Below are positions 3,605 to 23,877 of a stretch of DNA of 39,908 bases, in pieces (the stretch's first letter is position 1; each line of letters begins with the position of its first letter). The translations under genes were made by a program, and so were the position numbers. Source of the DNA: Pseudomonadota bacterium (GTDB lineage: Bacteria; Desulfobacterota; Desulfobacteria; Desulfobacterales; RPRI01); contig JAHJRK010000420.1 of assembly GCA_018830925.1 (NCBI GenBank), positions 1 to 39,908 of the forward strand, written 5' to 3'. A model generated the notes under the pieces. That model made no database searches. It worked only from the letters and a program-made list of their open reading frames with translations, and had not been told where the DNA came from.

Positions 3605-3612
3605 ATCTGATT

Positions 3613-5535: not shown

Positions 5536-5538
5536 AAA

Positions 5539-6426
5539 ATGCTTATGTCTGTCGCAGAAGGGATTATCTCAGGGATAATGATCGGAGGGGTTTACTCGCT
5601 GGTTGCTCTGGGCATCGTGGTAGTGTTCAAATCCACCAGGGTAATCACCTTTACACAGGGGGGCCTGCTGCTGATGGGGGCGATAACAGGATGGGCGCTC
5701 CTGGGACCGGCCGGTCTTCCCGTCGGTCTCGGGGTTGTTCTGACATTGGCCGCCTGCGCCTTCCTTGGGATGTGCTTAGACCGATTTACCCTCCGGCCGA
5801 TTATCGGGCAGCCGATTCTGGCCTCCATTATGGTGACCATCGCACTCGCCTGGCTTTTTGATTCTGTCGGAACCCTTATCATCGGAGGCGGTTTGAGGCC
5901 GTATCCGCCGCTCCTTCCACATGGGACCTACAAGTGGGGACGGGTCTACATTTCCCAGTCTCTCTTGCTGCAATTTATCATTGCGGTCCTCCTGTTTATT
6001 GCCTTTACTCTCTTCTACAAATATGGCCGGTTAGGCCTCGCCATGAGGGGCACGGCCGAAGATCATACGGTGGTGCAGAGCTTAGGCATAAAGGTAACAA
6101 ATATCTTTAGCTATTCATGGGTAATCGCCGCGCTTTCAGGCGGTGTCTCCGGGATTCTCCTGGCAAGCACATTGGGCGCCACCGTTGGCCTATCGGGAAT
6201 AGGGATGAAGGCGTTGGTCGTTGTCCTGATAGGAGGAATGGAGTCAATTCCCGGCGTTATCCTGATGGGTCCTATAATCGGTATCCTGGAAAATCTCTCC
6301 ATCCAGTTCCTGGATCCTTTGGTGGGCGGTGGCCTCGGCGAAGTGGTCCCTTACGCTGTCATGCTCATAGTGCTTTTGGTCAAACCTTATGGCCTGTTCG
6401 GTCTGAAAAGAATAGAAAGGATATGA
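5539..6426 (+). CDS. livH: Branched-chain amino acid-type ABC transporter permease (LivH family)
   Basis: GGVYSLVALGIVVVFKSTRVITFTQGG and GLAMRGTAEDHTVVQSLGI, hydrophobic, next to livM. Confidence 0.88.
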   Translation: MLMSVAEGIISGIMIGGVYSLVALGIVVVFKSTRVITFTQGGLLLMGAITGWALLGPAGLPVGLGVVLTLAACAFLGMCLDRFTLRPIIGQPILASIMVTIALAWLFDSVGTLIIGGGLRPYPPLLPHGTYKWGRVYISQSLLLQFIIAVLLFIAFTLFYKYGRLGLAMRGTAEDHTVVQSLGIKVTNIFSYSWVIAALSGGVSGILLASTLGATVGLSGIGMKALVVVLIGGMESIPGVILMGPIIGILENLSIQFLDPLVGGGLGEVVPYAVMLIVLLVKPYGLFGLKRIERI

Positions 6427-6429
6427 AAG

Positions 6430-7485
6430 ATGCACTGGGTGCCATGCGGAACATACAACGTTAATTACCGGCAGGACTTTGCAATATTCAGGACAAAGCC
6501 GCACTGGATATCCCTTGTTGTCTTTCTCCTTATCCTGTTCACTCTCCCCTTCTACTGCAGCCGCTACATGCTTGCCCTGCTTTCAACGATCGGGATCACA
6601 ATTATTGCGGTGCAGGGCCTCGGGATCCTTACAGGTTACGGAGGGCAGATATCCATAGGCCAGGCCGCCTTTATGGGAACAGGTGCCTATCTCTCCGTCA
6701 TTCTCATGCAGCGATTCGATTTCCCCTTTTTACTCGCCCTCTTTTCCGCAGGAATCGGCTCGGGTCTGGTCGGGGTCGTGTTCGGACTCCCGGCGCTGAG
6801 GATCAAGGGGTTCTACCTCGCCATGTCCACCCTGGCCGCACAGTTGATACTGGGGTGGTTCTTTTTGCACCTGAGGGGGATTACAGGCGGGACCGAAGGG
6901 CTACATGTGGAGCATGCCAGTTTTGCAGGGATTACCTTCAACACTCCGCAAAACAAATACTGGCTGGTAATGGTCTTTACCCTGCTTGCAATATTTTTTG
7001 CAAAGAACCTGATGCGCACCAAGGTGGGAAGGGCCCTGGTAGCGATAAGAGACAATGACCTGGCCGCTAAAGTAATGGGTATTGAGGTCGCGCTCTACAA
7101 ACTGCTTGCTTTCTTTATTTCATGCTTTTTTGCGGGTATCGCTGGGGCCGTCTATGCGCACTATATAGGCTTTATAAGCCCTGTGCAGTTTACCCTGCAG
7201 GATTCCATCCTCTATCTGGGCATACTGATTGTGGGCGGGATGGGAAGCATCATGGGTGCGATCTTCGGAACGGTTTTCATGAAGTTAATAGAGGAATTCG
7301 TCTTTGTCATCTCCCCCATGTTGGCCACGTGGTTTCCGGGATTCGGGGCGCAATTTTTCGCAGCGCTTTCGTTGGCCTTTTACGCGATTATTATTATTTT
7401 ATTTCTTGTCTTTGAACCGAGGGGCATAAATCACCTGTGGGTCGTCCTGAAAAACAGATACCGTCTTTATCCATTTTCTCATTAG
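6430..7485 (+). CDS. livM: Branched-chain amino acid-type ABC transporter permease (LivM family)
   Basis: GLGILTGYGGQISIGQAAFMGTGAY, LPALRIKGFYLAMSTLA, VGRALVAIRDNDLAAKVMGI. Confidence 0.9.
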   Translation: MHWVPCGTYNVNYRQDFAIFRTKPHWISLVVFLLILFTLPFYCSRYMLALLSTIGITIIAVQGLGILTGYGGQISIGQAAFMGTGAYLSVILMQRFDFPFLLALFSAGIGSGLVGVVFGLPALRIKGFYLAMSTLAAQLILGWFFLHLRGITGGTEGLHVEHASFAGITFNTPQNKYWLVMVFTLLAIFFAKNLMRTKVGRALVAIRDNDLAAKVMGIEVALYKLLAFFISCFFAGIAGAVYAHYIGFISPVQFTLQDSILYLGILIVGGMGSIMGAIFGTVFMKLIEEFVFVISPMLATWFPGFGAQFFAALSLAFYAIIIILFLVFEPRGINHLWVVLKNRYRLYPFSH

Positions 7486-7586
7486 ACGGTGCGGGGCCTG
7501 ATTTTGTGCAGGCAGGGGGGTCGGTCCGGCTAATTCGGCAGAGCGACCATTAACTAAACACATCAAACATTAAGAAAGGAGAGAGT

Positions 7587-8891
7587 ATGATGAGAATGAA
7601 AATGAATGTATGGCTGCTTTTGTTATCGTTGGGCATCTTTTTGGCAGGATCATCTTTTGGTCTGTTTGGGTATGCGCTCGCACAGGAAAAAGGGGTTCTG
7701 GATCGTGACCCGATCGGTTCTGTAGCGATCTTTGAGATCAACGATCTTACCGGTCCCACCTCGGATTCCTGTGTTCCTCACCATAACGGGATTTGGGATG
7801 TGATCAGGGACGTCAATGAAAAGGGCGGAATAATCTATAGTGACCCAAAGACGGGAAAGAAGGAACGGGTGAAGATCAATTTTGAATGGGGCGACAATAA
7901 GGCCCAGGCAGGGCCAGTGCCGACCCTTTATGAGCGCATGGCAAACGCAAGTCCCAGGCCCATTATATGTTATATGGGAAGTTCCGCAGCCGGTGAAACG
8001 ACTCCCCCCTGGACTCAACGTGACAAGATCGTCCAGATTAATGCGGGAGGGGGACAGCCGGGCTGGTATCCCCCGAGGTATGCTTTCACAATCAATTCCG
8101 ATTACCCGGGGAATGCCTGCACCGCTGCCTGGTGGGCAATGAAGGACTGGAAAAGCAAGGGGCATACAGAGGCCCCCGGTTGGGCATGGTTCACCCTTGA
8201 CATTCCGTACGGAAGGGCCACGATCAAACCCGAATCTGAGGCGTACATCAAGAGCCTTGGATTCAAGATAGTCGGCACCTGGACAATGCCCTTTGTCCCT
8301 GTGGATACCGGGGCGCAGTTTCGTTCCATGATAGATGCAGGCGCCAACTACTGTTACGGTAACCTGGTCATCCTCCAGCAGCAGAAGCTGATGAAAGACG
8401 TGACGATGTTAGGTCTCAAGGAAAAGATCCAGGTTATCGCCTGTCCCTACGGGATAATGGAGGATATTATTAAGGTGGCAGGAAAGGACGCTGAGGGTCT
8501 GGTCGGGGTTCATAATACGGCATTTCCTGATGAACTGGATAAGCCCGGTGTCAAATGGGCCCATGACATAACCAAGAAATACAAGCACGCCTGGAATAGT
8601 GACTCCATCCTGGGCTGCGCCTACGGAAAAATAATGGTCACGGCAATCAAGTGGGCTCTCGAAACAAAAGGGTATCCTGTCACCGGTGAGGATGTATACA
8701 ACTCCATGCTGAGCCCGGATGGTTTTGACACCGGTGGTTTGCTGCCCCCCGTGAAGTTCACCCAGACCGAAAGAAGAGGCATATGGAAAACCCACATGAG
8801 AGGGGTGAAAGACGGCAAGATCGTCAGAATAAGTGAAGATTTCACTATTCCGGATATGAAGCCCGGCGGACCGTGGACGCCGAAAGAATAG
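7587..8891 (+). CDS. livK: ABC transporter periplasmic substrate-binding protein (LivK family)
   Basis: Signal peptide MNVWLLLLSLGIFLAGSSFG; periplasmic-binding-like fold sequence between livM and livF; RBS AAGGAGAGAG. Confidence 0.85.
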   Translation: MMRMKMNVWLLLLSLGIFLAGSSFGLFGYALAQEKGVLDRDPIGSVAIFEINDLTGPTSDSCVPHHNGIWDVIRDVNEKGGIIYSDPKTGKKERVKINFEWGDNKAQAGPVPTLYERMANASPRPIICYMGSSAAGETTPPWTQRDKIVQINAGGGQPGWYPPRYAFTINSDYPGNACTAAWWAMKDWKSKGHTEAPGWAWFTLDIPYGRATIKPESEAYIKSLGFKIVGTWTMPFVPVDTGAQFRSMIDAGANYCYGNLVILQQQKLMKDVTMLGLKEKIQVIACPYGIMEDIIKVAGKDAEGLVGVHNTAFPDELDKPGVKWAHDITKKYKHAWNSDSILGCAYGKIMVTAIKWALETKGYPVTGEDVYNSMLSPDGFDTGGLLPPVKFTQTERRGIWKTHMRGVKDGKIVRISEDFTIPDMKPGGPWTPKE

Positions 8892-8896
8892 ACGTT

Positions 8897-9018
8897 GGAG
8901 CCAATTGCAAAACTCAATGAAACCTTCACCCCGGCAAAAGCAGGGGTCCAGAAAGCCTTGAAAAACCTGGATTCCTGCTTTCTCAGAAATGACGTTGAAG
9001 GACTTTTGCAAGAGGCTC
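8897..9018. mobile_element. MITE-like 122-bp element, copy 1
   Basis: Near-identical to 9897..10018; terminal inverted repeats GAGCCaaTTGCAAAAcTC / GAGCCtcTTGCAAAAgTC; flanked by GTT (8894-8896) and GTT (9019-9021). Confidence 0.75.
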
Positions 9019-9039
9019 GTTGGGGGGGCTGGGCATAAA

Positions 9040-9834
9040 ATGCTAAAAATCAGCAATGTTGAAGTAAAGTACAGCAACGTTATCCTGGTATTGAAGGGGG
9101 TTTCCCTGGAGGTGCCTGATGAGGCAGTGGTCTGTCTGCTGGGGGCCAATGGCGCCGGGAAGACCACCCTGATTCGCGCTGTCTCGGGCATGCTCAAGAC
9201 TCAGTTGGGAAAGGTGACAGACGGGGTCATTGAAATAGGTGGCCAGAGGGTCGAAAACCAGAGCCCTGAGGTCATAGCTGCCTTGAGGGTCGCCCAGGTC
9301 ATGGAGGGCAGAAGGGTGCTCGAACAACTTACCGTGGAGGAAAATCTGAAATTGGGGGGGTATATCGGTCCCGGAGGGAGCCGTCTAAAGGCCGATCTGG
9401 ACAGGGTCTATGACTACTTTCCCAGGCTCTGGGAGCTAAAGACCCGAACAAGCGGTTATATCTCCGGGGGCGAGCAGCAGATGGTGGTTATCGGCAGGGC
9501 ATTGATGACCCACCCGAAGCTAATGCTTCTGGATGAGCCCTCCCTGGGCCTTGCCCCGCTCATGGTAAAGAGCATCTATGAGGTTTTGGAGAGAATAAAC
9601 AGGGAGGAAAAAACCAGCATGCTCCTCGTTGAGCAGAATGCCAGGATTGCCCTGTCCATTGCGAGTTACGGGTATATAATGGAATCGGGGAGGATAGTGC
9701 TTGATGGTGCGGCTGAAAAGCTGAAAGATAACGAAGACGTGAAGGAGTTCTACTTAGGTCTCTCAGCTGTGGGCAAGAAGAAGAGTTACAAGGATGTCAA
9801 GCACTACAAACGAAGGAAGAGATGGCTGGGGTAG
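9040..9834 (+). CDS. livF: Branched-chain amino acid-type ABC transporter ATP-binding protein (LivF family)
   Basis: Walker A GANGAGKT, SGGEQQMVVIGRALM, LMLLDEPSLGLAP; ATG 9040 preferred because the upstream ORF extension (8989) lies in the MITE. Confidence 0.88.
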   Translation: MLKISNVEVKYSNVILVLKGVSLEVPDEAVVCLLGANGAGKTTLIRAVSGMLKTQLGKVTDGVIEIGGQRVENQSPEVIAALRVAQVMEGRRVLEQLTVEENLKLGGYIGPGGSRLKADLDRVYDYFPRLWELKTRTSGYISGGEQQMVVIGRALMTHPKLMLLDEPSLGLAPLMVKSIYEVLERINREEKTSMLLVEQNARIALSIASYGYIMESGRIVLDGAAEKLKDNEDVKEFYLGLSAVGKKKSYKDVKHYKRRKRWLG

Positions 9835-10018: not shown

Positions 10019-10208
10019 GATAGTTAGCCGATTTTGTTGATCCCGTTTGGTTCCAGGAACTGGTCACGCGGACGCGGTTCAGGCGCAGGATGTCTCTGTG
10101 TCAGGAACAGATTTCTGGATGTGATAGACGGGGAAAGTGCCCTTGATGAGCAACTTTGGATGTGATTACCACTAATTAGTTTTTATAGAATTAATGAGGA
10201 GGCTTTTG

Positions 10209-10997
10209 ATGGACAGAGAGAAATCGATAACTGTACCTGGATATGAATCTGCAATAACTGATGTGGGATTTCATAAGATAAATATTCGCGGGTATCCACT
10301 CGCGGATATTATTCGAAAACTCACTTTCACGGAAGCGGTTTTCCTGACAATCAGGGGAGAACTGCCCACTGAAAAGCAGAAAAGGGTCATGGACGCGGTC
10401 CTTTGCGGTATCGTGGATCATGGATTGTTTGCGCCAACCAGCCTCGCTACAAGGGTGGTAGCCTCTGCTGCCCCTGATAGTATTATGCCTGGGGTTGCAG
10501 CAGGAATGCTTACGGTCGGTGCTGTGACGGTCTCGCCGCAGGATACGGCCGTCATTATAGAAGAAGCGCTAAGGATGGTTAAAGAGGAAGGCCTAAGCCA
10601 AAAAGAAGCGGCCACCAAGACCGTAGAAGACCATAAGGCCAAAAGGAAGAGGATGCCGGGACTCGGTCATCCCCTCCATCCAACAGGAGACCCCAGAGCC
10701 ATTGCACTGAAAGAGGTGGCCGTGGAAAATGGCGTGTGGGGAGAAAAGGGGGATATCTACGACGAGATCCACAAAGCATTTGGTGAGATAACCGGTAAAA
10801 AGTTTCCCATCAATATAGATGGGATGATGGGATGTGTTTTGAGCGAGTTAGGATTTGCACCCAAAGAGATGGCGGGAATTGCTGCGCTCTCATTTATGCC
10901 GGGGATGATTGCCCATGCAGTTGAGGAGAGTGAAACAATCAAGCTGCGGGTTGCCGAATGCAAATATACGGGAGTATCGGAGAGAAAGCTACCTTAG
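10209..10997 (+). CDS. Citrate synthase/citryl-CoA lyase-family protein
   Basis: GLGHPLHPTGDPRA and INIDGMMGCVLSELGF motifs of the citrate synthase superfamily. Confidence 0.75.
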   Translation: MDREKSITVPGYESAITDVGFHKINIRGYPLADIIRKLTFTEAVFLTIRGELPTEKQKRVMDAVLCGIVDHGLFAPTSLATRVVASAAPDSIMPGVAAGMLTVGAVTVSPQDTAVIIEEALRMVKEEGLSQKEAATKTVEDHKAKRKRMPGLGHPLHPTGDPRAIALKEVAVENGVWGEKGDIYDEIHKAFGEITGKKFPINIDGMMGCVLSELGFAPKEMAGIAALSFMPGMIAHAVEESETIKLRVAECKYTGVSERKLP

Positions 10998-11120
10998 GGC
11001 TGAAGAACCAATCAAACGTGTAAGGCATAAATAAATGTACGTGATACGCCACGATATGTTGTGAAACGGGCATGCACCCTAATCGCAATTAGAAATCCTG
11101 TAAATGGGTAGGTGAATAAA

Positions 11121-11543
11121 ATGAGATATTTTGATGACTTTGAAATAGGAGAAAAAATAGTAACCAAGAGCAGGTCTATTACTGAGGCTGATATTGTGCT
11201 TTTTTCGGCATTTAGCGGTGACTGGCATCAGCTTCACACAGACATTGAATTTGCAAAGAAAGGGCCGTTCGGCGAGCGGATAGCACATGGCTTCCTTGTC
11301 CTTGCTGTGGCTTCCGGGTTGATGCCTCTCGGAGAAATGGCTGTTCTGGCCTTTTACGGAATGGACAAGGTCCGGTTTGTGGGGCCCACCAAAATAGGGG
11401 ATACAATCCATGTGGAGATGGAGGTCTTGGAGAAACAGGAAAAGGAAAAGGGCGGGGTTGTCTCTTTTAAGAGCAGTATAAGAAATCAAAAGGAAGAAGA
11501 CGTAGCTATTCTTACCATGAAGGTAGCACTACACAAGAAATAG
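11121..11543 (+). CDS. MaoC-like enoyl-CoA hydratase/dehydratase
   Basis: FSGDWHQLHTDIEFAKKGPFGERIAHGFLVLAVASGL hotdog/MaoC signature. Confidence 0.85.
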   Translation: MRYFDDFEIGEKIVTKSRSITEADIVLFSAFSGDWHQLHTDIEFAKKGPFGERIAHGFLVLAVASGLMPLGEMAVLAFYGMDKVRFVGPTKIGDTIHVEMEVLEKQEKEKGGVVSFKSSIRNQKEEDVAILTMKVALHKK

Positions 11544-11556
11544 GGGACACAAGACG

Positions 11557-13494
11557 ATGACAGCGCTAAAATATCTCTTTTCACCCATAAAGATCGGGGC
11601 TATGGAGGTGAAAAACAGATTGGTTATGCCCCCAATGGGTATCAATTTCGGTGTTGATGAGGGGGGATACGTCACTGACCAGCTCAAGGCGTATTTTGCT
11701 GCAAGGGCTAAGGGCGGGACCGGCATGATGATCGTAGGAGGGGCCGCTGTTCACCCCACAGGGCTGGATCTCCCCAAACTGCCGCGAATCTGGGCTGACG
11801 AGTATATCCCGGCATTCAGGGAGATGACCGATGCAATTCATCAATATGACGTGAAATTCGGGATACAGCTACTTCACGGCGGAAGGCAGTGTTACCACGG
11901 CAAAGGGGTTGCGCCCTCTCCCCTCCCGGCCCAGGGGGTGGTCAGAGGGACGCCCCGGGAACTTACAATACCAGAGATCGGGGAGATGGTGGAGGCTTTC
12001 GGAGACTCTGCCCGCAGGAGCGAGGAAGCGGGTTTTGATTTCGTTGAAATTCACGGGGCTCACGGCTATCTGGTGACGCAGTTTTTGGCCTTGAATTCCA
12101 ATAAAAGAGAAGACGCATATGGCGGTTCTTTTGAAAACAGGATCCGATTCCTGCTGGAGGCCGTCAGAGATATCAAGAAAAAAACGAGCCCTGATTTTCC
12201 ATTAGGGATCAGAATAAACGGTGATGACTTCATCAAGGATGGATGGATTATTGAAGACGCCAAACGGATTGCCCCCATTCTTGAGAGGGAGGGCGCAGCA
12301 TACCTCCATATTACAGCGGGCATTTATGGATCCTACCCGCCAGGCATAAGTATTCCATCCATGTATGCCAGGCAAGGGGTCTTTATTCACTTGGCCGAAG
12401 AGATCAAAAAGGTGGTGTCGATCCCTGTAATAGGCGTGGGGAGAATAAAGAATCCTGAACATGCAGATCGCATCATCAAAGAAGGGAGGGCCGACATGAT
12501 CTCCATGGGCCGTGCCCATCTGGCGGACCCCGAACTGTCTAATAAGGCCAGGATGGGCAACATTGCAGATATCAGACCTTGCCTCGGCTGCTGTCTGGGT
12601 TGTGCGCACAATGTCTTTTCTCTGGAAGCCGCCACCTGTGTGATGAATCCCGAAGTAAACAGGGAATATCTGTTCAAGGGCCATGAGAAAGTCGCAAACC
12701 CAAAGAAAATATTGGTCATTGGCGCAGGCCCTTCTGGTTTGGCCGTATCGAGACTGGCAGCCATTCGCGGTCATAAAGTCATAGTATGCGAGCAGAAGAT
12801 GCATGTCGGTGGCATGTTGCGGCTAGCCTCTATACCGCCCGGGCGTTCAGAGTTTATGGAACTTATCGACTACTATCAAAGGGAACTGGAAAAGCTGTGC
12901 GTTGAGATAAGATTGAATGTGCTGATTGACGATGACCTTGTAGATTCAATTAAACCGGATACAATCGTTCTTGCTACGGGGAGTCTTCCCGAGATGCCGC
13001 AGATCGAGGGGCTCTTTGATACCGATATGGATATCCATACCGTAGTCGAGGTGCTCAAAGGGGAGGTGAGTCTTGGTGACAGAGTGATTGTACTGGGCGG
13101 AAATCAGGTGGGGCTTGAAACTGCGGATTTCCTGGCCGGAAAGGGCAAGGAGGTGGTGGTCCTCCATAGAGACGGGCATTTTGCAATAGAAATGGCGGCC
13201 AATGACAGGGTTTTTTTGATAGAAAGGCTGAAGCAGCAAAATGTCAAACGCTACAAAGAGGTTTCCATAAAGCGATTTTTGCCCCAGGGAGTTCTTTTTC
13301 GAGTGGGGGATAAAGAGATCAGGCTTGACCATTTTGAGGACATGGTTCTTTCAGAGGGGATGAGATCCATCAGGACTCTGGCAGATCTTTTCAAGAGGAA
13401 AGGGCTGGAAGTCTACTTTATCGGAGATGCCAAAAACCCGAGGTCTCTTCTGGAATCCCAGAGTGAAGCGGATGAGCTGGGTCGCTCTATCTAA
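11557..13494 (+). CDS. NADH:flavin oxidoreductase / 2,4-dienoyl-CoA reductase-like protein (OYE + FeS + FAD/NAD domains)
   Basis: OYE barrel GIQLLHGGRQ, EIHGAHGYLVTQFLALNSNKREDAYGGSFENRIRFLLE; PCLGCCLGCAHNVFSLEAATCVMNPE 4Fe-4S ligands; GAGPSGLAVSRLAAIRGHKV. Confidence 0.88.
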   Translation: MTALKYLFSPIKIGAMEVKNRLVMPPMGINFGVDEGGYVTDQLKAYFAARAKGGTGMMIVGGAAVHPTGLDLPKLPRIWADEYIPAFREMTDAIHQYDVKFGIQLLHGGRQCYHGKGVAPSPLPAQGVVRGTPRELTIPEIGEMVEAFGDSARRSEEAGFDFVEIHGAHGYLVTQFLALNSNKREDAYGGSFENRIRFLLEAVRDIKKKTSPDFPLGIRINGDDFIKDGWIIEDAKRIAPILEREGAAYLHITAGIYGSYPPGISIPSMYARQGVFIHLAEEIKKVVSIPVIGVGRIKNPEHADRIIKEGRADMISMGRAHLADPELSNKARMGNIADIRPCLGCCLGCAHNVFSLEAATCVMNPEVNREYLFKGHEKVANPKKILVIGAGPSGLAVSRLAAIRGHKVIVCEQKMHVGGMLRLASIPPGRSEFMELIDYYQRELEKLCVEIRLNVLIDDDLVDSIKPDTIVLATGSLPEMPQIEGLFDTDMDIHTVVEVLKGEVSLGDRVIVLGGNQVGLETADFLAGKGKEVVVLHRDGHFAIEMAANDRVFLIERLKQQNVKRYKEVSIKRFLPQGVLFRVGDKEIRLDHFEDMVLSEGMRSIRTLADLFKRKGLEVYFIGDAKNPRSLLESQSEADELGRSI

Positions 13495-13539
13495 GGTGTG
13501 ATCGTTGGAAGACATTATCGAATTATAGGAGATATAGAG

Positions 13540-14967
13540 ATGAGAACGGCAGTGCAATATTACGAGGACATAGGTAAGCTAAGAAACAACGTGTATGTGA
13601 GTGGCAAGAAGGTTGGTCGTCATGATCCCATCTTCGAGAAATCCCTGAATGTGATAAGATGTACTTTTAATGCCGTGGATGATCCTGATCTGCGGCCACT
13701 TGTTGTTGTAAAGTCTGAAGTTGACGGCCGCGAGATCAATCGCTTCAACCACACGCACCGGAGCGTCCAGGATCTGTTGAATAAACAGGAAATGACAAGG
13801 AAATTGTGTTGGAAAAGCGGTAGCTGCATTCAGAGATGCATGGGCACGGACGCCCTCAATGCTGTGGGGGTCGTATCGAGAGAGATAGATGAGGCAAAGG
13901 GGACGGAATATCATAAAAACTTTCTGGTGTTTCTTAAGCATTTTCAGGAAAACGACCTGATCGGCAATGCGGCCCAGACAGATGTCAAAGGAGACCGCAG
14001 CAAGCGGCCCCATGAGCAGGAAGACCTTGACCTCTATCTTCGTGTGGTTGAGAAGAGGTCCGATGGAATAGTCGTGAGGGGCGCAAAGGCGCATAATACG
14101 ACTGGTCCCTACGCTGAAGAAATTATTGTTCTTCCCACGCGGGCGCTGACGAAGGAAGAAGGGGCTTGGGCCGTCGCCTTTGCCATCCCGGCTGATACTG
14201 AAGGCATAAAACTGGTGTGCAGGGTCAGCTCCATGCGCGAGCGCAAACATCTCTCTGCCCCTGGTAGCGAGTTCGGCATGTCCGATTCCATGACGATTTT
14301 TGATGATGTCTTTATTCCATGGGAGAGGGTATTCATGTGCGGGGAGTGGGAGTTCGGCGCCCGAATGGCCTTGTTGTTTGCCAATTACCATCGGCATACC
14401 TACTGCGGCTGCAAACCGGCTGTAACTGATATTATTATGGGTCTAACTGCCCTGGTCGCCGACTATAACGGCATTGGCAAGGCCCCCCATGTTGTGGATG
14501 ACATATCAGAGCTTATGATTCTGGCCGAACTGGTCTTTGCCGCCGGGATTGCCGCTTCAGTCAAGGGGAAAGAGTCTTTATCAGGAATTTATGAACCTGC
14601 CTTCATTTACTCAAATGCTGGTCGCTATATCGCCGGCGAAAATATCTACCACGAGTATGAAATACTTGCAAAGGTAGCTGGAGGGTTCCCTGCAACCATT
14701 CCTTTTGAAGATGACTGGTACAGTGAAGAGACGGGCGATCTTCTCCATAAATATATCATGCGCAACCCTTCTGTTTCCGCTGAGGACCAGCATCGTCTCT
14801 TCAGATTTATCTCCGATTATAGCTGTTCAGCTATTGCGGGGGTCTACCAGTACGCCGGAGTCCATGGAGGGGGATCGCCGATTATGGAAAAGATTGGAAT
14901 CAGGACCAACTATGACCTTGAGCTGAGAAAGAAAATTGCAAAGAATCTGGCGGGTATCAAGAGCTGA
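13540..14967 (+). CDS. 4-hydroxybutyryl-CoA dehydratase/4-hydroxyphenylacetate 3-hydroxylase family protein (AbfD-like, divergent)
   Basis: CIQRCMGTDALNA (CxxxC) plus HRHTYCGCK (H-x6-C) FeS ligands, GAKAHNTTG; ATG 13540. Confidence 0.85.
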   Translation: MRTAVQYYEDIGKLRNNVYVSGKKVGRHDPIFEKSLNVIRCTFNAVDDPDLRPLVVVKSEVDGREINRFNHTHRSVQDLLNKQEMTRKLCWKSGSCIQRCMGTDALNAVGVVSREIDEAKGTEYHKNFLVFLKHFQENDLIGNAAQTDVKGDRSKRPHEQEDLDLYLRVVEKRSDGIVVRGAKAHNTTGPYAEEIIVLPTRALTKEEGAWAVAFAIPADTEGIKLVCRVSSMRERKHLSAPGSEFGMSDSMTIFDDVFIPWERVFMCGEWEFGARMALLFANYHRHTYCGCKPAVTDIIMGLTALVADYNGIGKAPHVVDDISELMILAELVFAAGIAASVKGKESLSGIYEPAFIYSNAGRYIAGENIYHEYEILAKVAGGFPATIPFEDDWYSEETGDLLHKYIMRNPSVSAEDQHRLFRFISDYSCSAIAGVYQYAGVHGGGSPIMEKIGIRTNYDLELRKKIAKNLAGIKS

Positions 14968-15049
14968 TGACTGAATTCTATTTTCGATCCAGCAGGAACA
15001 GATACTTTGGCCAACATTGAGAACCACGACTCTTTTTGAAGGAGACGAG

Positions 15050-16234
15050 ATGCTGTTTGAAAAAGTAGACCGTGACGAGTATACGCAGGATCAGCGCATT
15101 ATGGCCGATTTTGTAGGCAAGCTTGCCAATCGGTATGGCCGGGAATACTGGCTTGCCAAGGCGGAGAAAAAGGAATTTCCACAGGAGATGTGGGATGAAA
15201 TCGCCGATAATGGGTATTTTGGACTTGTCATTCCTGAGGAATATGGTGGCGCAAGCCTCTCTTTCAGTGATATGAGAGTATTTTTGGAGGAGCTTGCGAA
15301 AAAAGGCCTGTTTACTCTCCATTTTGTAAGCTTTTTCATGGATAGTATTATGCTCCTGCATGGAAGCGAAGCTCTGAAAAGGGAATACCTCCCCCAGATG
15401 GCCCGAGGCACATATTTCAGCTTTGCGCTGACCGAGCCTGATGCGGGAACAAACTCCTTGCGGATAAGGACAGCTGCTATAAGGGATGGGGATTCATATC
15501 GGATTAATGGTCAAAAGCTATTTATTACCGGCGCAGACGAATCAAAATATATGCTCCTTGTAGCTCGAACAATGCCTTTCAACGAAGATAGCAGGGAGGC
15601 AAGAAAGAACGGGATCAGCCTGTTTGTCCTCGATTCACACGCTGAAGGCATATCCATGCAGACCCAGGACATTGACATCGTTACACCTGATAAGCAATAT
15701 ACCGTGTTTTTTGACGACGTCAAAGTGCCTGCAAAAGATCTGATCGGGAAAGAAAATATGGGTTTTTCTTACCTGCTCTCAGGTCTCAATCTTGAGAGAG
15801 TGATCATCTCCTGTTTTGCTCTCGGGATGGGAAAATATGTACTTGAAAAGGCCGTTAATTATTCGCGTGAGAGGAATATCTTCGGCGATCCCATCGGCAA
15901 GTACCAAGGGGTACAGCATCCCCTGAGCCGCGCCTTTATCGGGCTTCAATTGGCCAGCCTCGCAAACCGGAAGGCATCTCAGGCTCTGGATGGCGGCGAA
16001 AACTCCGGCATAACGGGGATGTATGCCAATATGGCAAAACTTGCCTCCAGTGAGGCGGCCTTTCATGCGTGTGATGCAGCCATACAGGTACATGGTGGTT
16101 ATGGCCTTACCAAGGAATATGACGTAATTAATTTTTCCAATGCAATACGTGCCCTTCGGATTGCCCCTGTCAACAATGAAATGATTCTCAACTATATTGG
16201 GGAGCATTTCCTGGGTCTACCAAGAAGTTATTGA
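15050..16234 (+). CDS. Acyl-CoA dehydrogenase
   Basis: FALTEPDAGTNSLRIRTAA, YRINGQKLFITGA, RNIFGDPIGKYQGVQH, VHGGYGLTKEYDVINF; start ATG 15050 with GGAG RBS. Confidence 0.9.
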   Translation: MLFEKVDRDEYTQDQRIMADFVGKLANRYGREYWLAKAEKKEFPQEMWDEIADNGYFGLVIPEEYGGASLSFSDMRVFLEELAKKGLFTLHFVSFFMDSIMLLHGSEALKREYLPQMARGTYFSFALTEPDAGTNSLRIRTAAIRDGDSYRINGQKLFITGADESKYMLLVARTMPFNEDSREARKNGISLFVLDSHAEGISMQTQDIDIVTPDKQYTVFFDDVKVPAKDLIGKENMGFSYLLSGLNLERVIISCFALGMGKYVLEKAVNYSRERNIFGDPIGKYQGVQHPLSRAFIGLQLASLANRKASQALDGGENSGITGMYANMAKLASSEAAFHACDAAIQVHGGYGLTKEYDVINFSNAIRALRIAPVNNEMILNYIGEHFLGLPRSY

Positions 16235-16278
16235 CATAAAGCTTATGTTATCAAGTGCGGTTGAGAGAGGAAATAAGA

Positions 16279-17043
16279 ATGATAAAAGAACTGTTCGGTT
16301 TAGAGGGGAGGTCAGCCCTTGTGGTTGGAGCAAGCAAAGGCTTGGGAAAGGCAATGGCCCTGGCTCTTGCAGGCGCCGGTGCAGATGTGGCGGTGGCAAG
16401 CAGATCACAGAAGTTGATTGAAGAGGTCAGGGATGAAATCCTTGCCTCGGGTAGGAAGGCGGTTGCCGTAAAGGCCGACATAAGCAGGGAAAAGGATATC
16501 ATCGGTATGGCAGGCCAGGTGATTGACTCTTTCGGGAAGATAGACATCCTCGTGAACAATGCTGGGATCTATCTCCCTGCAACGGCCCTTGATATGACTG
16601 CCGAGGATTGGGACAAAACTCTAAATATCAATCTAAAGGGTATTTTCCTTACCTGCAAGGCAGTGGGAAGACATATGGTTGATCAGAAAAATGGAAAGAT
16701 CATCAATATAGCGTCTGTCCTCGGAAAGCGGGCCGCTCAGACGTCTTCTGCCTATTCAGCTTCCAAGGCTGCGATAATTCAGTTCACCAGATCTCTGGCC
16801 CTTGAACTGGCTCCCCACAATATCAGGGTCAATGCCATTGCTCCGGGGTGGTTTGAAACGGAAATGGTGAAAAATGAGCTTGGGGATCCAAATACGAGAA
16901 AATACTTCCTTTCCAAAACGCCGCTTAAGAAATTTGGAGTACCCGAGGAGTTGGGTGGCGCCATTATTTTTCTTGCATCAAAGGCATCCGACTTCATGAC
17001 AGGAGAGACTATCACCATAGATGGAGGGTTCTCTATATGGTAG
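16279..17043 (+). CDS. Short-chain dehydrogenase/reductase
   Basis: VVGASKGLGKAMALALAGAGADVAVASRS, NNAGIYLP, YSASKAAI, PGWFETEM. Confidence 0.92.
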   Translation: MIKELFGLEGRSALVVGASKGLGKAMALALAGAGADVAVASRSQKLIEEVRDEILASGRKAVAVKADISREKDIIGMAGQVIDSFGKIDILVNNAGIYLPATALDMTAEDWDKTLNINLKGIFLTCKAVGRHMVDQKNGKIINIASVLGKRAAQTSSAYSASKAAIIQFTRSLALELAPHNIRVNAIAPGWFETEMVKNELGDPNTRKYFLSKTPLKKFGVPEELGGAIIFLASKASDFMTGETITIDGGFSIW

Positions 17044-17139
17044 TATGCGGAGCCTAACCGGATTATTAGACTTATTGTCGGCAGGACAATCGTTTCTTGT
17101 AACGCTTTCAGCTTTAATACACGCGCACGTAAATCTATA

Positions 17140-17260
17140 GCGTTTCAGATAATGATTTTGGCAAGGATAGATGGAGGAATCCGAGTAAGGAGTACATGTT
17201 AGTGCGTCGTCGAGGATCCCGACCGATAACGCGGTCCAAAATCTTCATATGGAAGGCTAT
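17140..17260 (+). repeat. 121-bp imperfect direct repeat, copy A
   Basis: GCGTTTCAGATAATGATTTTGGCAAGGATAG...CCAAAATCTTCATATGGAAGGCTAT; matches 21549..21669. Confidence 0.8.
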
Positions 17261-17347
17261 GTTATAATTCAGTAATGACCGTCGAGCAAGTAGCCTTTGG
17301 AGAAGTCACTATTTATTGATTATTATGGCTGTATTAGAGGAAAAAAA

Positions 17348-19192
17348 ATGGAAAACTTATTAGTAGATAAAAGAGATCAGTCGTTCGTTTTACAAGAAAT
17401 GCTTAGAATAAAAGAATTATTAGAACATTCTCTCTATAACGAATACTCATATAAAATGTGTGATATGGCACTGAAAGAGGCTCATAAATTAGCAAAAGAT
17501 AAATTAATGCCGACAAATAAAGAGGCAGATGACAAAGGCTGTATTTACAATACTGAGGACAATTCGGTTAAGATGCCTGAAAGTTACCACGCTCTATATA
17601 AAATGCTTCGGCAGGGCAACTGGATTGCCATGTGTGAAAGTGCTGAGGTTGGGGGGGAGGGGTTCCCGCTTGTCATTGGAACGGCAATATCCGAGGTTTT
17701 TTATGCGGGGTCTGTTTGTTTGTACGGCGCTGCTGAGTTGACGCATGGAGCTGCGAAACTTATTGAAGTTTTCGGAGACAGCCATCAAAAAAAACAGTTT
17801 CTTAAAAAACTGTACTCCGGCGAATGGATGGGCACAATGTGTCTCACGGAATCCGGCGCTGGAAGCGATGTGGGCGCCATAGAAACAAAGGCGGCTGAAA
17901 ACGACGACGGCACTTATTCAATCTACGGTACAAAAATCTTTATTTCTGCAGGCGAGCACGATCTTACCGAGAATATAGTCCATATGGTACTGGCAAGGGT
18001 CGAAGGGGACCCGTCAGGAACAAAAGGCCTTTCACTGTTTATCGTTCCGAAATATCTGGTTGGAGAGGATGGAAAACTTGAAGATAGAAATGACGTGCGA
18101 TGCACCGGAATCGAGCACAAAATGGGGTGCCATGGTCTTTGCACTTGTACAATGGTGTTCGGAGATAAGGGTGGATGTGTCGGATACCTCCTTGGTGAGC
18201 AGCGAAAAGGGATTTTAGAGATGTTTCACATGATGAACGAACAGCGGCTGCTTGTAGGGATTGAGGGACTTGCACTTTCTTCAAGCGCATATTTGCACGC
18301 AGTGGATTATACAAAAAGTCGCATCCAGGGGGTTTCAATACATGATAACAAGACGCCGGTTCCTATTATCCAGCATCCTGATATAAAGCGGATGCTTCTG
18401 ACAATGAAGGCGTATGTTGAAGGCTGTAGAGCGTTATCTTATTTTACCAGTCTCTGCATCGACTACGCAAAAATTTCAGAGGGTGACGACAAGGCGGAAT
18501 GGGAGGGGTTGGTTAATCTACTCATTCCCATAGTTAAAGCTTATATTACAGACAGATCATGGGAAATAACCGGATTAGCCATCCAATGTGCTGGTGGATA
18601 TGGTTATTGCTCAGATTACCCATTTGAGCGATTTGCGCGTGATTGTAAAATTACCTCCCTTTTTGAGGGAACAAACGGTATTCAGGCGATGGATTTGTTG
18701 TTTAGAAAACTTATCAGAAATAAATTGGTTGACTTCCATCAACTCATGAAACGAATTGATACGGCAATAGAAAAAGCAGATGATATTGAAGAAATCAAGG
18801 AATACGCGAAGACAGTGAGGAAAGCAAAAGATGGCCTTATTGAAATTGTTGATGGAGTAGTGGAAATGGCAAAGGAAAAGGATGCGTTACATTTGTACAT
18901 AAAAGCAACGCCTTTTCTTGAGGCGATGGGGGATGTCGTACTGGGTTGGATGCATTTGTGGCAGTTGACGATTTCTCATAAAGAATTGACCAGATATAAG
19001 TCCGGTGAGAATAAAGAGAAAAAGGATAATACACTACACATAAATAAAGAAGCCGCATTTTATGCCGGTAAGATATCAAGCGCTAAATTTTATATCGGAA
19101 CAATTCTCAAAAGAACGATCGGTAAATTTGAAGAATTAAAATCAGATGCGAGTCCCGTAATGGAAATTATCGATAAATCTTTTGCTGGGTAA
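17348..19192 (+). CDS. Acyl-CoA dehydrogenase, long form with C-terminal extension (DmdC-like architecture)
   Basis: MCLTESGAGSDVGAIETKA, YSIYGTKIFISAGEHD, CAGGYGYCSDYPFERFARDCKITSLFEGTNGIQAMDLLFRKL; ATG 17348. Confidence 0.88.
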   Translation: MENLLVDKRDQSFVLQEMLRIKELLEHSLYNEYSYKMCDMALKEAHKLAKDKLMPTNKEADDKGCIYNTEDNSVKMPESYHALYKMLRQGNWIAMCESAEVGGEGFPLVIGTAISEVFYAGSVCLYGAAELTHGAAKLIEVFGDSHQKKQFLKKLYSGEWMGTMCLTESGAGSDVGAIETKAAENDDGTYSIYGTKIFISAGEHDLTENIVHMVLARVEGDPSGTKGLSLFIVPKYLVGEDGKLEDRNDVRCTGIEHKMGCHGLCTCTMVFGDKGGCVGYLLGEQRKGILEMFHMMNEQRLLVGIEGLALSSSAYLHAVDYTKSRIQGVSIHDNKTPVPIIQHPDIKRMLLTMKAYVEGCRALSYFTSLCIDYAKISEGDDKAEWEGLVNLLIPIVKAYITDRSWEITGLAIQCAGGYGYCSDYPFERFARDCKITSLFEGTNGIQAMDLLFRKLIRNKLVDFHQLMKRIDTAIEKADDIEEIKEYAKTVRKAKDGLIEIVDGVVEMAKEKDALHLYIKATPFLEAMGDVVLGWMHLWQLTISHKELTRYKSGENKEKKDNTLHINKEAAFYAGKISSAKFYIGTILKRTIGKFEELKSDASPVMEIIDKSFAG

Positions 19193-19270: not shown

Positions 19271-20128
19271 ATGGATATAAAAAAAGTCGCGGTTATCGGA
19301 GCGGGAATCATGGGGCATGGAATCTCGCAAGTGATTGCAACGGCAGGTTTAGAAGTTAAATTATATGATATTTCAGAAGAGATGTTAGAAAAGGCAAAAT
19401 ACAAGATTGAGAATTCACTGGAACGCGGAATAAAAAAGGGTAAAATAGATGAAAAGGCTAAAAAAGATATTCTTGAACGAATATCCTTTACACCCAATTT
19501 AAGCGAGGCCGTTAAAAATGCTGATCTCATTATCGAGGCCGTTTATGAAAATTTGGATCTGAAAAAAGATATATTTAAAAAACTGGATGCGATATGTCTG
19601 AATGAAACAGTATTTGCATCCAATACATCTCAATACAGTATAACCGATATTGCGTCAGTTGTATCGAATCCTTCGAGAGTTATCGGGATGCATTGGTTCA
19701 ACCCGCCAGTAGCCATGAATCTGATCGAAATAGTGCGGGGTATTGAAACCTCCGAAAAGACCGTATCCCGGATTAAAGAGTTCTCTTTGAAAGTGGGAAA
19801 AGAATCAGTTGTTTGCAAAGATTCACAGGGATTTATAAGTACAAGAATATTAGTTGCCATGCGGCTTGAGTGTTATCGCATATTGGAAGAAGGGATTGCA
19901 ACTAAAGAAGATATCGATAAAACGCTGCGATTGGCCTTTGGTCATCCAATGGGGCAGTTCGAGTTGTCGGATCTGTCAGGACTCGATATCGAGGTGCCTA
20001 TATGTGAGTCGCTGGTCAAAGTTTTCGGTGATCGGTTCAGACCTCCCCAGAATCTACTACAACGCGTAAGCGCCGGTAAGTTTGGAAGGAAAACAGGAGA
20101 AGGCTGGTATGATTACGACGAAAAATAA
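19271..20128 (+). CDS. 3-hydroxyacyl-CoA dehydrogenase
   Basis: VAVIGAGIMGHGISQVIATAG, FASNTSQYSITDIASVVSNPSRVIGMHWFNPPVAMNLIEIV. Confidence 0.93.
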   Translation: MDIKKVAVIGAGIMGHGISQVIATAGLEVKLYDISEEMLEKAKYKIENSLERGIKKGKIDEKAKKDILERISFTPNLSEAVKNADLIIEAVYENLDLKKDIFKKLDAICLNETVFASNTSQYSITDIASVVSNPSRVIGMHWFNPPVAMNLIEIVRGIETSEKTVSRIKEFSLKVGKESVVCKDSQGFISTRILVAMRLECYRILEEGIATKEDIDKTLRLAFGHPMGQFELSDLSGLDIEVPICESLVKVFGDRFRPPQNLLQRVSAGKFGRKTGEGWYDYDEK

Positions 20129-20158: not shown

Positions 20159-21397
20159 GTGAATGAAATAAACACAAGAGCTACTACAAAAACGGATGAA
20201 GATGTTGTGATTGTCAGTGCGGCCAGATCACCGTTTAGCAAGTTTGGCGGTGTCCTCAAGGAAATGCACAGTATAGATATCGCAGTTAAGGTAATGGAAG
20301 GTGTGCTCGATAGAAAAAAATTAGAAAAAAGTATTGTCGATGTTATTTACTACGGCATGTGTATCCAGTCCGAAGCTGCTATCGAATATAATGTAAACGC
20401 CAGGCAGGCAATGCTTAGAGCTGGTTTTCCACCCGAAACTCTATCGCTGACGATCGACAGGGCCTGCTGTTCATCTTTGACAGCAATACATTTAGGATAC
20501 AAGGATATACGGCTGAGTGAAGCCGATGTTGTTATGGCGGTCGGTACGGAAAATATGAGTAATACTCCGTTTGTAATGCACAACGTTCGCTGGGCTAAAG
20601 GCTTGGATCAGCCTCAGATCAAGGACCACCTGTTCCCTGTAACATATACCGGATACAAGCCTTTAGCTTATGATGCGGGAGAAGTAGCGCTGGAACATGG
20701 CATCAGTAGAGAAGAACAGGACGAATGGGCTTACCAAAGCCAAATGAGATATCAGGAAGCAAAAGAAAAAAAAGTTTTTATGGATGAAATAATACCTATC
20801 GAAATTTTTCAACGCAAGGGGGAAAAATATATTTTTGCGGAAGATGAATTTCCTAAGCCGAATACCAAACTCGAAAAATTAGCAGAGCTGAAAACTGTTT
20901 ATAACAGTCTGACCGTAACAGCCGGTAATGCTCCGGGGTTGGACGCAGGCGCATCGGCCATCGTTTTGATGAAACGAAAACAAGCAAATGAACTGGGACT
21001 TGATATTCTTGGTAAAATAGTTTCAATTGCAAGTATCGCACTGGAGCCCCGTTTACTAGCGGTAGCGCCTGCGCCAGCAATTGAAAAGGCGCTTGAAAAA
21101 GCCGGGCTTACTATTGATGATATTGATAGGATTGAAATAAATGAGGCATTTGCCGTAATGCCTTTAGTGGCAACGAAAATATTAGGGAGAGGAAATGCCG
21201 AAAAAGTAAAAAAACTTCGAGAGATAACAAATGTAAACGGAGGAGCAATAGCTATAGGGCATCCTGTCGGCGCCAGCGGAGCAAGAATTTTGATGACTCT
21301 TCTGTATGAACTTAGACGGAGTAGTGGGAGATACGGGGTGTGTTCAATATGCGGCGGTCTCGCGCAGGGAGATGCGGCTGTTATCCAAGCTGAATAA
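20159..21397 (+). CDS. Thiolase (acetyl-CoA acyltransferase)
   Basis: DRACCSSLTAIHLGYKDI, NVNGGAIAIGHPVGASGARI, CSICGGLAQGDAAVI. Confidence 0.92.
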   Translation: MNEINTRATTKTDEDVVIVSAARSPFSKFGGVLKEMHSIDIAVKVMEGVLDRKKLEKSIVDVIYYGMCIQSEAAIEYNVNARQAMLRAGFPPETLSLTIDRACCSSLTAIHLGYKDIRLSEADVVMAVGTENMSNTPFVMHNVRWAKGLDQPQIKDHLFPVTYTGYKPLAYDAGEVALEHGISREEQDEWAYQSQMRYQEAKEKKVFMDEIIPIEIFQRKGEKYIFAEDEFPKPNTKLEKLAELKTVYNSLTVTAGNAPGLDAGASAIVLMKRKQANELGLDILGKIVSIASIALEPRLLAVAPAPAIEKALEKAGLTIDDIDRIEINEAFAVMPLVATKILGRGNAEKVKKLREITNVNGGAIAIGHPVGASGARILMTLLYELRRSSGRYGVCSICGGLAQGDAAVIQAE

Positions 21398-21743: not shown

Positions 21744-21992
21744 TTGTTTGTTGAATATGAATTCCATAAATTAGTTGAACAGATAAAATCAAAATGCAAT
21801 TTTGTAAAAAGACTCTTTTGCGTAGGGCCTGTGAAGGACGGAGGAGATGAGGAAGAGATAGATTTGACAGAACTCGTGGGGGGAAAAATAGCCGGATATA
21901 AAAAACCCAGGTCTGTTACATTTGGTGACGATTTGCCAAAGACAGAAGATGGTTCCATTGATCAAACTGCCGTTAAGTATTCACATCAATAG
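21744..21992 (+). pseudogene. C-terminal remnant of an AMP-dependent acyl-CoA ligase
   Basis: DLTELVGGKIAGYKKPRSVTFGDDLPKTEDGSIDQTAVKYSHQ* matches the AMP-binding C-terminal domain end; no catalytic N-domain. Confidence 0.75.
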
Positions 21993-22041
21993 GTTAACGA
22001 GTATCGGGGAAAAACTTCCGGAAAGAGAAGGAGATTTAATC

Positions 22042-23565
22042 ATGGCACGAATGACTGGAAGAGAGTACGTTGAATCTTTAAAGGAGCTTGAACTAGAGGT
22101 TTATTACATGGGCAGAAAGATTACCCGTGTTACAGACGAACTGATGTTTATGCCACATATTAACACAGCGGCAATGACATATGAGTTGGCTTGCGATCCT
22201 GAATATGCGGAGATCATGACAGCCACTTCTCATCTGAGCGGTGAAACCATAAACAGGTTCACCCATATCCATCACAGCATCGATGACCTGGTGAAAAAGA
22301 TCCGGATGATGAGGCTGCTGGGACAAAAGACCGGTACATGCTTTCAGAGATGCGTCGGTCTTGACGCGCTGAATGCCCTTTATACAACGACTTACGACTT
22401 GGATCAGGAGAGAGGAACCCAATACCACAGGAATTTTAAAAAGTTTCTAAGTCATGTGCAATCCAAAGACTTAATGTCCGCAGGCGCCATGACCGATCCG
22501 CGGGGAGACCGGAGTTTCAGGCCGTCAGAGCAAAAAAGCCCGTACGCTTATCTGAAAATCACTAACCGTAACCAGGACGGCATCATTGTGAACGGGGCAA
22601 AGGCGCACATTACCGGGGCGATCAATTCCCACGAGATCATCGTGTTGCCTACTCGGGCCATGGGAGAAGATGACCGGGAGTTTGCCGTATCTTTTGCAAC
22701 ACCTGTGAACACACGCGGGATAAAGTACATTTTTTCACGCCAGACCAATGATAGCCGCCGCCTTGAGAGCCCGTTGGACTCAGGCAATCCTAAATATGCC
22801 ATCGTCGGAGGGGAAGCAGTGATTCTGTTCAAGGATGTCTTCATCCCTTGGGAGCGGGTTTTCATGGCCGGAGAGGCGGAGTTCTGTGCATCCCTGGTGG
22901 AGACCTTCGCTGGGAATCACCGAGCCAACTATGGTGGGTGTAAAGTGGGTCTTGCCGATGTAGTAATCGGCGCTTCCCATTGGATCGCAGACGCCCACGG
23001 TGTGGCCAAGGCTTCCCATATTGTCGACAAGCTCACAGACATGATTGCCATGGCCGAAACATGTTGGTCCTGCTCCCTATCTTGCTCTTACGAAGGACAC
23101 CAAACCCCATCGGGGTCCTACTCGATCAATCCAATGCTGGCCAACGTGACAAAGCTGAACATCACCAAGCTGGCCTACGAGTGGATGCGGGTGGCACACG
23201 ATATCGCAGGGGGGAAAATCATCACACTCCCGTCCGAAAAAGATCTGGATATGCCTGAACTCGGAGACATTATAAGGGAGTGTTTCAGCGGCCGCGACGG
23301 TGTTGATGTGGACGATATTTTCAAGATGCTCAGACTGATCGAAAACATGTCCGTAGGCGCGGGTCTGCCGGAGGCCATGCACGGAGCTGGATCGCCGGCA
23401 GCGCAGAAGATTATGATCGCCCGCCGCAGCGGTATTGACCGCAAACGAGTTTATGCTGAAACCATAGCGGGAATTAGACCGGATCAGCTTTTTGAATCGA
23501 TTGTCGGTATGAACGAGGCCGAATATTGGAAAAAAACTCGGGACCGGATCAAGAATCAGCAATAA
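22042..23565 (+). CDS. abfD: 4-hydroxybutyryl-CoA dehydratase/vinylacetyl-CoA isomerase family protein
   Basis: CFQRCVGLDALNA, GAKAHITGA, GGEAVILFKDVFIP, HRANYGGCKVGLADVVIGA, EAMHGAGSP; ATG 22042 with AAGGAG RBS. Confidence 0.85.
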   Translation: MARMTGREYVESLKELELEVYYMGRKITRVTDELMFMPHINTAAMTYELACDPEYAEIMTATSHLSGETINRFTHIHHSIDDLVKKIRMMRLLGQKTGTCFQRCVGLDALNALYTTTYDLDQERGTQYHRNFKKFLSHVQSKDLMSAGAMTDPRGDRSFRPSEQKSPYAYLKITNRNQDGIIVNGAKAHITGAINSHEIIVLPTRAMGEDDREFAVSFATPVNTRGIKYIFSRQTNDSRRLESPLDSGNPKYAIVGGEAVILFKDVFIPWERVFMAGEAEFCASLVETFAGNHRANYGGCKVGLADVVIGASHWIADAHGVAKASHIVDKLTDMIAMAETCWSCSLSCSYEGHQTPSGSYSINPMLANVTKLNITKLAYEWMRVAHDIAGGKIITLPSEKDLDMPELGDIIRECFSGRDGVDVDDIFKMLRLIENMSVGAGLPEAMHGAGSPAAQKIMIARRSGIDRKRVYAETIAGIRPDQLFESIVGMNEAEYWKKTRDRIKNQQ

Positions 23566-23568
23566 AAA

Positions 23569-23877
23569 GTGTATAGCGAGACCGGGGTGATGAGGCTTGA
23601 AGCAGACATGGTCCGGCGGCTGAGCATATTGGTCAGGTTCTGCGGAGGATGCAGCCCTGAAGTCGATCGTGGCCGCCTGGTTAGAGCTGTTAAGCTTAAG
23701 TTAGGCTTCTGGTTGATTTTGACGCCAAGCGGTCTGAGGATGATGTATGAGGTGTATAAGCAGCTTCAGGAAAAGGCCGGCCCACGGCAGGTAAAAAACC
23801 TATCTCTCGGCCTCAGTCATAATATTGGCGGTGTGCCGGGTTCAGGTGTTTGCAACATCATTATTGCGGGTAATTAG
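23569..23877 (+). pseudogene. Chimeric remnant ORF: CGGC-motif segment joined to a thiolase (SCP-x type) C-terminus
   Basis: Residues about 52-102 SGLRMMYEVYKQLQEKAGPRQVKNLSLGLSHNIGGVPGSGVCNIIIAGN read as a thiolase C-terminus; N-part ILVRFCGGCSPEVDRGRLVRAVK is unrelated. Confidence 0.6.

Follow-up and report, generated by a model that had tools for sequence, protein, structure and literature searches.

The closest described relatives of the protein studied here are 4-hydroxybutyryl-CoA dehydratases (4HBDs), for which structures of AbfD from Clostridium aminobutyricum (1u8v) and of the N. maritimus enzyme (6vjr, source according to its PDB title) are available. AbfD is unusual in that its radical reaction is triggered by substrate binding alone, and Glu455 is held, from mutagenesis work, to be needed for this start. 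In their 2015 mutagenesis study of AbfD, Zhang et al. are said to have assigned E455 to the deprotonation of Y296, and E257, acting via T190, to the protonation of the flavin; the E455Q variant reportedly loses activity. The HpaB-type 4-hydroxyphenylacetate 3-monooxygenases (2yyg, 9lft) have the same Pfam domains and overall fold as the protein under study, and they contain no [4Fe-4S] cluster.

Gene, fold and clade of the protein encoded at 13540-14967

The window, i.e. the whole stretch of 39,908 nucleotides that was analysed, belongs to a 3.2-Mb draft genome. Its Tex protein shares 62-67% identity with the counterparts from Desulfobacterales and Syntrophales-type genomes in the comparison, and the host is therefore most likely an uncultured representative of the Desulfobacterota. 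At 13540-14967 of its forward strand lies an uninterrupted open reading frame for a protein of 475 aa (P0001); the antisense frame across the same interval is broken by stops. The ATG at 13540 has a GGAG motif ~8 nt on its 5' side and coincides with the N-termini of homologs, for which reasons the GTG at 13498 that was chosen by the ORF finder is the less likely start. Scans for promoters and terminators yielded nothing above chance level.

A preliminary description of this DNA, made from the letters alone, had called P0001 a paralog of the AbfD family and had suggested a structural model and a tree as checks. The assignment held from end to end: HpaB_N (E 1e-88) and HpaB (E 1.1e-57) domains span the entire protein, and the top phmmer match in the PDB was 1u8v (E 2.5e-111, residues 2-474 covered), while the second 4HBD structure, 6vjr, was matched at E 3.7e-96. 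An AlphaFold model, built from the window and fetched loci (mean pLDDT 94.6, pTM 0.92), predicts the AbfD fold, with a TM score of 0.95 and an rmsd of 2.0 to 1u8v across 489 columns at 39% identity. The modelled fold is equally close to 6vjr (TM 0.95), and reaches at most 0.90 when compared with HpaB-type enzymes.

Scanning a single genome per species gave 75 relatives of P0001, and further ones came from searches among relatives and across the class. This sample was collected with P0001 peptide patterns and includes close copies, so that all counts given below describe the sample and not natural frequencies. In a tree of 111 rows, P0001 fell into a clade of 66 rows (clade B, SH-aLRT 100) that is apart from the AbfD-type clade holding AbfD and 6vjr (clade A). 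Both clades had 100/100 support in a more careful tree of 41 rows, where joining P0001 to clade A was rejected (p-AU 1.7e-30), which places P0001 outside the clade with the solved 4HBDs. Rebuilding the tree without the columns around 257, 292-300, 380, and 455-466 left the split at 100 for both groups, excluding the possibility that the grouping is an artefact of these signature columns.

Clade B was found in Desulfobacterota, Chloroflexota (Dehalococcoidia), Bacillota, and Aquificota, and among archaea in Bathyarchaeota, Jordarchaeia, Sigynarchaeota, and Archaeoglobi, that is, in largely anaerobic lineages. Judged by its sequences, it is a large subfamily of bacteria and archaea that is separate from the clade of the solved 4HBDs and has no characterised member; a literature search, with most subscription papers outside its coverage, found no clade-B protein that had been characterised biochemically. 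The clade-B gene of Desulfurella acetivorans (L061:10001-11420) contains an in-frame TAA in a finished genome and is either a pseudogene or carries a sequencing error.

Two other branches of the family differ from AbfD in their motifs. One is rich in Syntrophales (L068-L072, L075, L078) and has VRxxKGxCT in the place of the H292/Y296/K300 motif, by which the cluster ligand H292 is lost, and CAGGTP instead of HGAGSP. The other (L007:18880-20340, L015:19710-21169, L141, L145) has CYC for CQC and retains HGAG or HGGG, and its motif in the region of Y296 reads HRMTCGGTCK or HRYVGSGCK, without Y296.

Exchange of catalytic residues between the two clades

AbfD numbering was taken from 1u8v in the phmmer alignment, in which C99, Q101, C103, T190, E257, H292, Y296, C299, K300, E455, and A460 of 1u8v were all the expected letters. 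On this numbering, the by-eye alignment of the preliminary description proved correct throughout: P0001 keeps the [4Fe-4S] ligands C99, C103, H292, and C299 as well as Q101, T190, Y296, and K300, and it has D at 257, A at 455, and G at 460, while the second paralog in the window (P0002, 22042-23565, forward strand) retains E257, E455, and A460. Further differences from AbfD are M149 to Q, Q294 to H, and I380 to E. The N. maritimus enzyme shares the cluster ligands, the tyrosine, and the lysine with P0001, but it groups with AbfD and keeps E257, E455, and A460, neither of which is true of P0001.

Residues were then counted in 26 clade-A and 66 clade-B sequences, both sets being defined by the tree, since picking members by motif would have made the conservation of H294 circular. 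Position 455 is E in all 26 clade-A sequences and never in clade B (57 A, 6 G, 1 D), and position 460 is A in 26 sequences of clade A and G in 64 of clade B. Histidine at 294 and glutamate at 380 were each found in 66/66 clade-B sequences, as opposed to mostly Q or A and mostly I, respectively, in clade A. Position 149 is M in all 26 clade-A sequences, against 59 Q and 7 M in clade B, while position 257 changes from 26 E to 47 D, 17 E, and 2 H. The cluster ligands, together with Y296 and K300, show essentially no variation in either clade (in clade B, C99 and C103 in 65/65, and H292, C299, Y296, and K300 in 66/66). A homolog from Ignisphaera (L063) stands between the two: it has V at 455 together with G at 460, yet lacks H294. 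Changes that are common to 66 tree-defined sequences exclude a quirk of a single protein, chance, or a sequencing error.

The claim that P0001 has altered catalytic residues therefore stands in part. It stands for E455A with A460G, and probably not for E257D, which from the alignment appears to be a minor, conservative change because position 257 is acidic in 64/66 clade-B sequences and is still E in 17 of them; and what had been presented as a trait of one paralog is the property of a widespread subfamily. The change that matters in clade B, as far as sequences can tell, is the replacement of E455 by A or G along with A460G, H294, and E380. The loss of E455 is thus accompanied by two newly invariant ionisable residues, either of which may have taken over its role. 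On the AbfD model attributed to Zhang et al., clade B would have retained the flavin side and replaced the tyrosine side. By analogy with the reported inactivity of AbfD E455Q, clade B could be unable to carry out AbfD-type chemistry.

It is very improbable that P0001 is catalytically dead or an HpaB-type flavin monooxygenase. HpaB models are the only ones that NCBIfam offers for it, but its scores of 160.5 bits against a cut-off of 480.2 (TIGR02309) and of 65.1 against 885.2 (TIGR02310) are so far below these equivalog thresholds that a monooxygenase identity was ruled out. Moreover, a clade that extends from bacteria to archaea shows no variation at the ligands and Y296, unlike what decay would leave, and the anaerobic character of most host lineages also speaks against it.

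The reading favoured here, at a probability of roughly 0.55, is that P0001 is a radical lyase or isomerase with FAD and a [4Fe-4S] cluster and a rebuilt acid-base relay, which acts on an acyl-CoA other than 4-hydroxybutyryl-CoA and yields a 2-enoyl-CoA. The occupancy of both cofactors and the radical mechanism are what I infer from the conserved residues. The type of chemistry would most likely be that of AbfD: a CoA ester lying between flavin and cluster would undergo one-electron activation, the gamma substituent would be lost and/or the double bond shifted, and the resulting 2-enoyl-CoA would pass to beta-oxidation. As for the relay, Glu455 is gone and Ala460 is changed to Gly, while an invariant His294 and Glu380 are gained.

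Coexisting paralogs, gene neighbourhoods and candidate substrates

The host genome of the window has both types, clade B at 13540-14967 and clade A at 22042-23565. The same is true of Dethiosulfatibacter aminovorans, in which the clade-A copy shares 79% identity with AbfD. In four loci (L007, L008, L010, L017) both types are found within a single locus. In Desulfofundulus australicus and Desulfoscipio geothermicus, clade B was the only family member found. Possibly comparable are crenarchaeal second 4HBD copies such as Msed_1220, which is listed without a value ('ND') beside the assigned Msed_1321 (PMC7078158); here too, an additional member of the family accompanies a working 4HBD. Searches of nine genomes of the same genus found no clade-B copy, with best matches of the AbfD type at ~40% identity or nothing, and this absence suggests, on the basis of gene distribution, that the host genome gained the clade-B gene horizontally. 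The same genome contains a second clade-B gene (L108:4290-4523, on G000:C153), cut by the contig end so that only the C-terminus is present.

These distributions bear on the distinctly unlikely alternative that P0001 is a genuine 4HBD in which H294 and E380 do the job of E455. Such an enzyme would fit Desulfofundulus and Desulfoscipio, where clade B as the only family member found lies beside a ligase and a 3-hydroxyacyl-CoA dehydrogenase (HADH), in Desulfofundulus also a thiolase, but it would be at odds with the AbfD-type copies that coexist in the window and in Dethiosulfatibacter, as well as with the placement of P0001 outside the clade of the solved 4HBDs. Some close relatives (L020, L021, L015, L029) have as neighbours alcohol dehydrogenases of the iron type, the family to which 4-hydroxybutyrate dehydrogenase belongs, yet the one that was tested had its highest scores with other subfamilies (ErcA, lactaldehyde reductase). 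The substrate is probably other than 4-hydroxybutyryl-CoA.

In the window, the following neighbours of P0001 are all on the same strand. Upstream lie a branched-chain-amino-acid-type ABC importer (two ATPases, two permeases, and a binding protein) with an acyl-CoA ligase (2813-9834), with similar importer sets preceding the clade-B genes of L007, L010, L015, and L030, followed by a citryl-CoA-lyase-like protein with a citrate synthase C-terminal domain (10194-10997), a MaoC-like hydratase (11112-11543), and an OYE-family flavin/Fe-S reductase (11557-13494) which stops 45 nt before the P0001 gene. Downstream lie a member of the acyl-CoA dehydrogenase family (15017-16234, from TTG as a putative start), a short-chain dehydrogenase (SDR; 16255-17043) from the SDR group that most frequently accompanies clade-B genes, a long-form acyl-CoA dehydrogenase with an Acyl-CoA_dh_C domain (17297-19192), an HADH (19271-20128), an acetyl-CoA C-acyltransferase or thiolase (20159-21397), P0002, and an AMP-forming acyl-CoA ligase (23929-25455). 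Domain and profile matches thus bear out the OYE, MaoC, acyl-CoA dehydrogenase, and citrate-synthase-like neighbours named at the outset.

The best PDB match of the OYE-family protein is 2-naphthoyl-CoA reductase (6qkg, 2e-99), before 2,4-dienoyl-CoA reductase (1ps9, 1.6e-93), and enzymes of the latter type (DCR) give 3-enoyl-CoA. This would agree with P0001 being solely a delta3-delta2 enoyl-CoA isomerase that kept the vinylacetyl-CoA isomerase half of AbfD and lost the dehydratase half, as would the loss of E455, and its substrate would be the 3-enoyl-CoA that the OYE, with its gene ending 45 nt before, produces. Across loci, an OYE gene lay no more than three genes from a clade-B gene in four cases, and in none at a distance of six genes or more (p 0.055, window included). 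Such an isomerase-only role with this substrate is nevertheless rather unlikely, given that OYE neighbours are rare over clade B, that isomerisation requires proton transfers too, and that crotonase-fold isomerases normally do the job without a radical.

The flanks of P0002 (21398-22041 and 23569-23877) hold gene remnants, namely the C-terminus of an acyl-CoA ligase at 21819-22031 (39% to the L054 ligase) and that of a thiolase at 23719-23874 (92% to the L054 thiolase). SURF_67 (L054) has an intact thiolase gene adjacent to a ligase gene whose DNA is 88% identical, and for this reason the AbfD-type gene of the window seems, from the sequence comparison, to have inserted into a thiolase gene. 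Two copies of an intergenic repeat of 128 bp, which share 89% identity, lie before the second acyl-CoA dehydrogenase gene (17133-17260) and before the P0002 gene (21542-21669); this is possibly a small mobile repeat tied to the rearrangement.

Frequent neighbours of clade-B genes are acyl-CoA ligases or CoA-transferases, crotonase, HADHs, and thiolases, so the product of P0001 is, by inference, probably a 2-enoyl-CoA. The D. aminovorans and Youngiibacter loci comprise a clade-B gene, HADH, crotonase, CoA-transferase, an unknown protein, and thiolase; the Desulfofundulus locus has ligase, clade-B gene, HADH, and thiolase; and downstream of the second copy in the host genome come genes for an HSD10-type SDR, a crotonase, a thiolase, and lastly a small protein that looks OB-fold/zinc-ribbon-like from its sequence. 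The gene between CoA-transferase and thiolase in D. aminovorans (L039:14838-15740) encodes 301 aa with no Pfam match and a marginal crotonase-fold match (E 0.004). By gene content, several clade-B loci encode a putative short pathway by which a CoA-activated acid would be converted to acetyl-CoA, and in the D. aminovorans/Youngiibacter, Desulfofundulus, and second-copy loci the clade-B gene takes what would be the place of an acyl-CoA dehydrogenase supplying the enoyl-CoA.

SDRs made up 19/301 near neighbours against 6/319 far ones (p 0.007), and HADHs were counted 8 times near and once far (p 0.018); both p values are uncorrected, and allowing for the ~18 tests the enrichment is only suggestive. 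Many clade-B loci are without SDR- or HADH-type neighbours. As a guide to the substrate, the conserved neighbours gave no single answer, with ligases, CoA-transferases, iron-type alcohol dehydrogenases, SDRs, and ABC/TRAP transporters differing by lineage.

The D. aminovorans locus, with its carnitine-dehydrogenase-like HADH and a beta-keto acid cleavage enzyme, raises the thought that P0001 eliminates another gamma leaving group, for example the quaternary amine of gamma-butyrobetainyl-CoA, which needs no protonation on leaving. A reaction of this kind is known from BbuA, a gamma-butyrobetainyl-CoA lyase that forms trimethylamine and crotonyl-CoA by gamma-elimination (PMC8364193); a flavin-based mechanism to crotonyl-CoA has been proposed for it (PMC8364193), but BbuA belongs to the acyl-CoA dehydrogenase family and has ~10% identity to 4HBD (PMC8364193). 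The two D. aminovorans enzymes, however, score under curated cut-offs, the best match of the cleavage enzyme is the lysine-fermentation family, and the window holds no amine-related pointer, which makes an amine-eliminating P0001 hardly credible.

Clade B, the AbfD radical start and 4HBD as a marker

P0001 resembles AbfD in outline and should not be filed as a 4-hydroxybutyryl-CoA dehydratase, because tests for two defining features, Glu455 and clade placement, found the glutamate absent and the protein outside the AbfD clade. A large natural clade that is without Glu455 and has all ligands and the tyrosine offers a direct test of the radical-start model of AbfD. Tentatively, clade B may be a separate class of radical flavoenzymes that start without Glu455 via a His294/Glu380 relay, on an acyl-CoA (branched, cyclic, or with another leaving group) that is not yet known as a substrate of any radical dehydratase, lyase, or isomerase. 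If true, this class would serve anaerobic acid degradation in sulfate reducers, Dehalococcoidia, and archaea.

The 4HBD gene serves as a marker of carbon fixation through the 3HP/4HB and DC/4HB cycles (PMC3654217; PMC12794621), and counts of it could wrongly include clade-B genes of Desulfobacterota, Dehalococcoidia, Bathyarchaeia, and others. Checking for Glu455 and A460 (4HBD) versus H294 and G460 (clade B) would separate the two.
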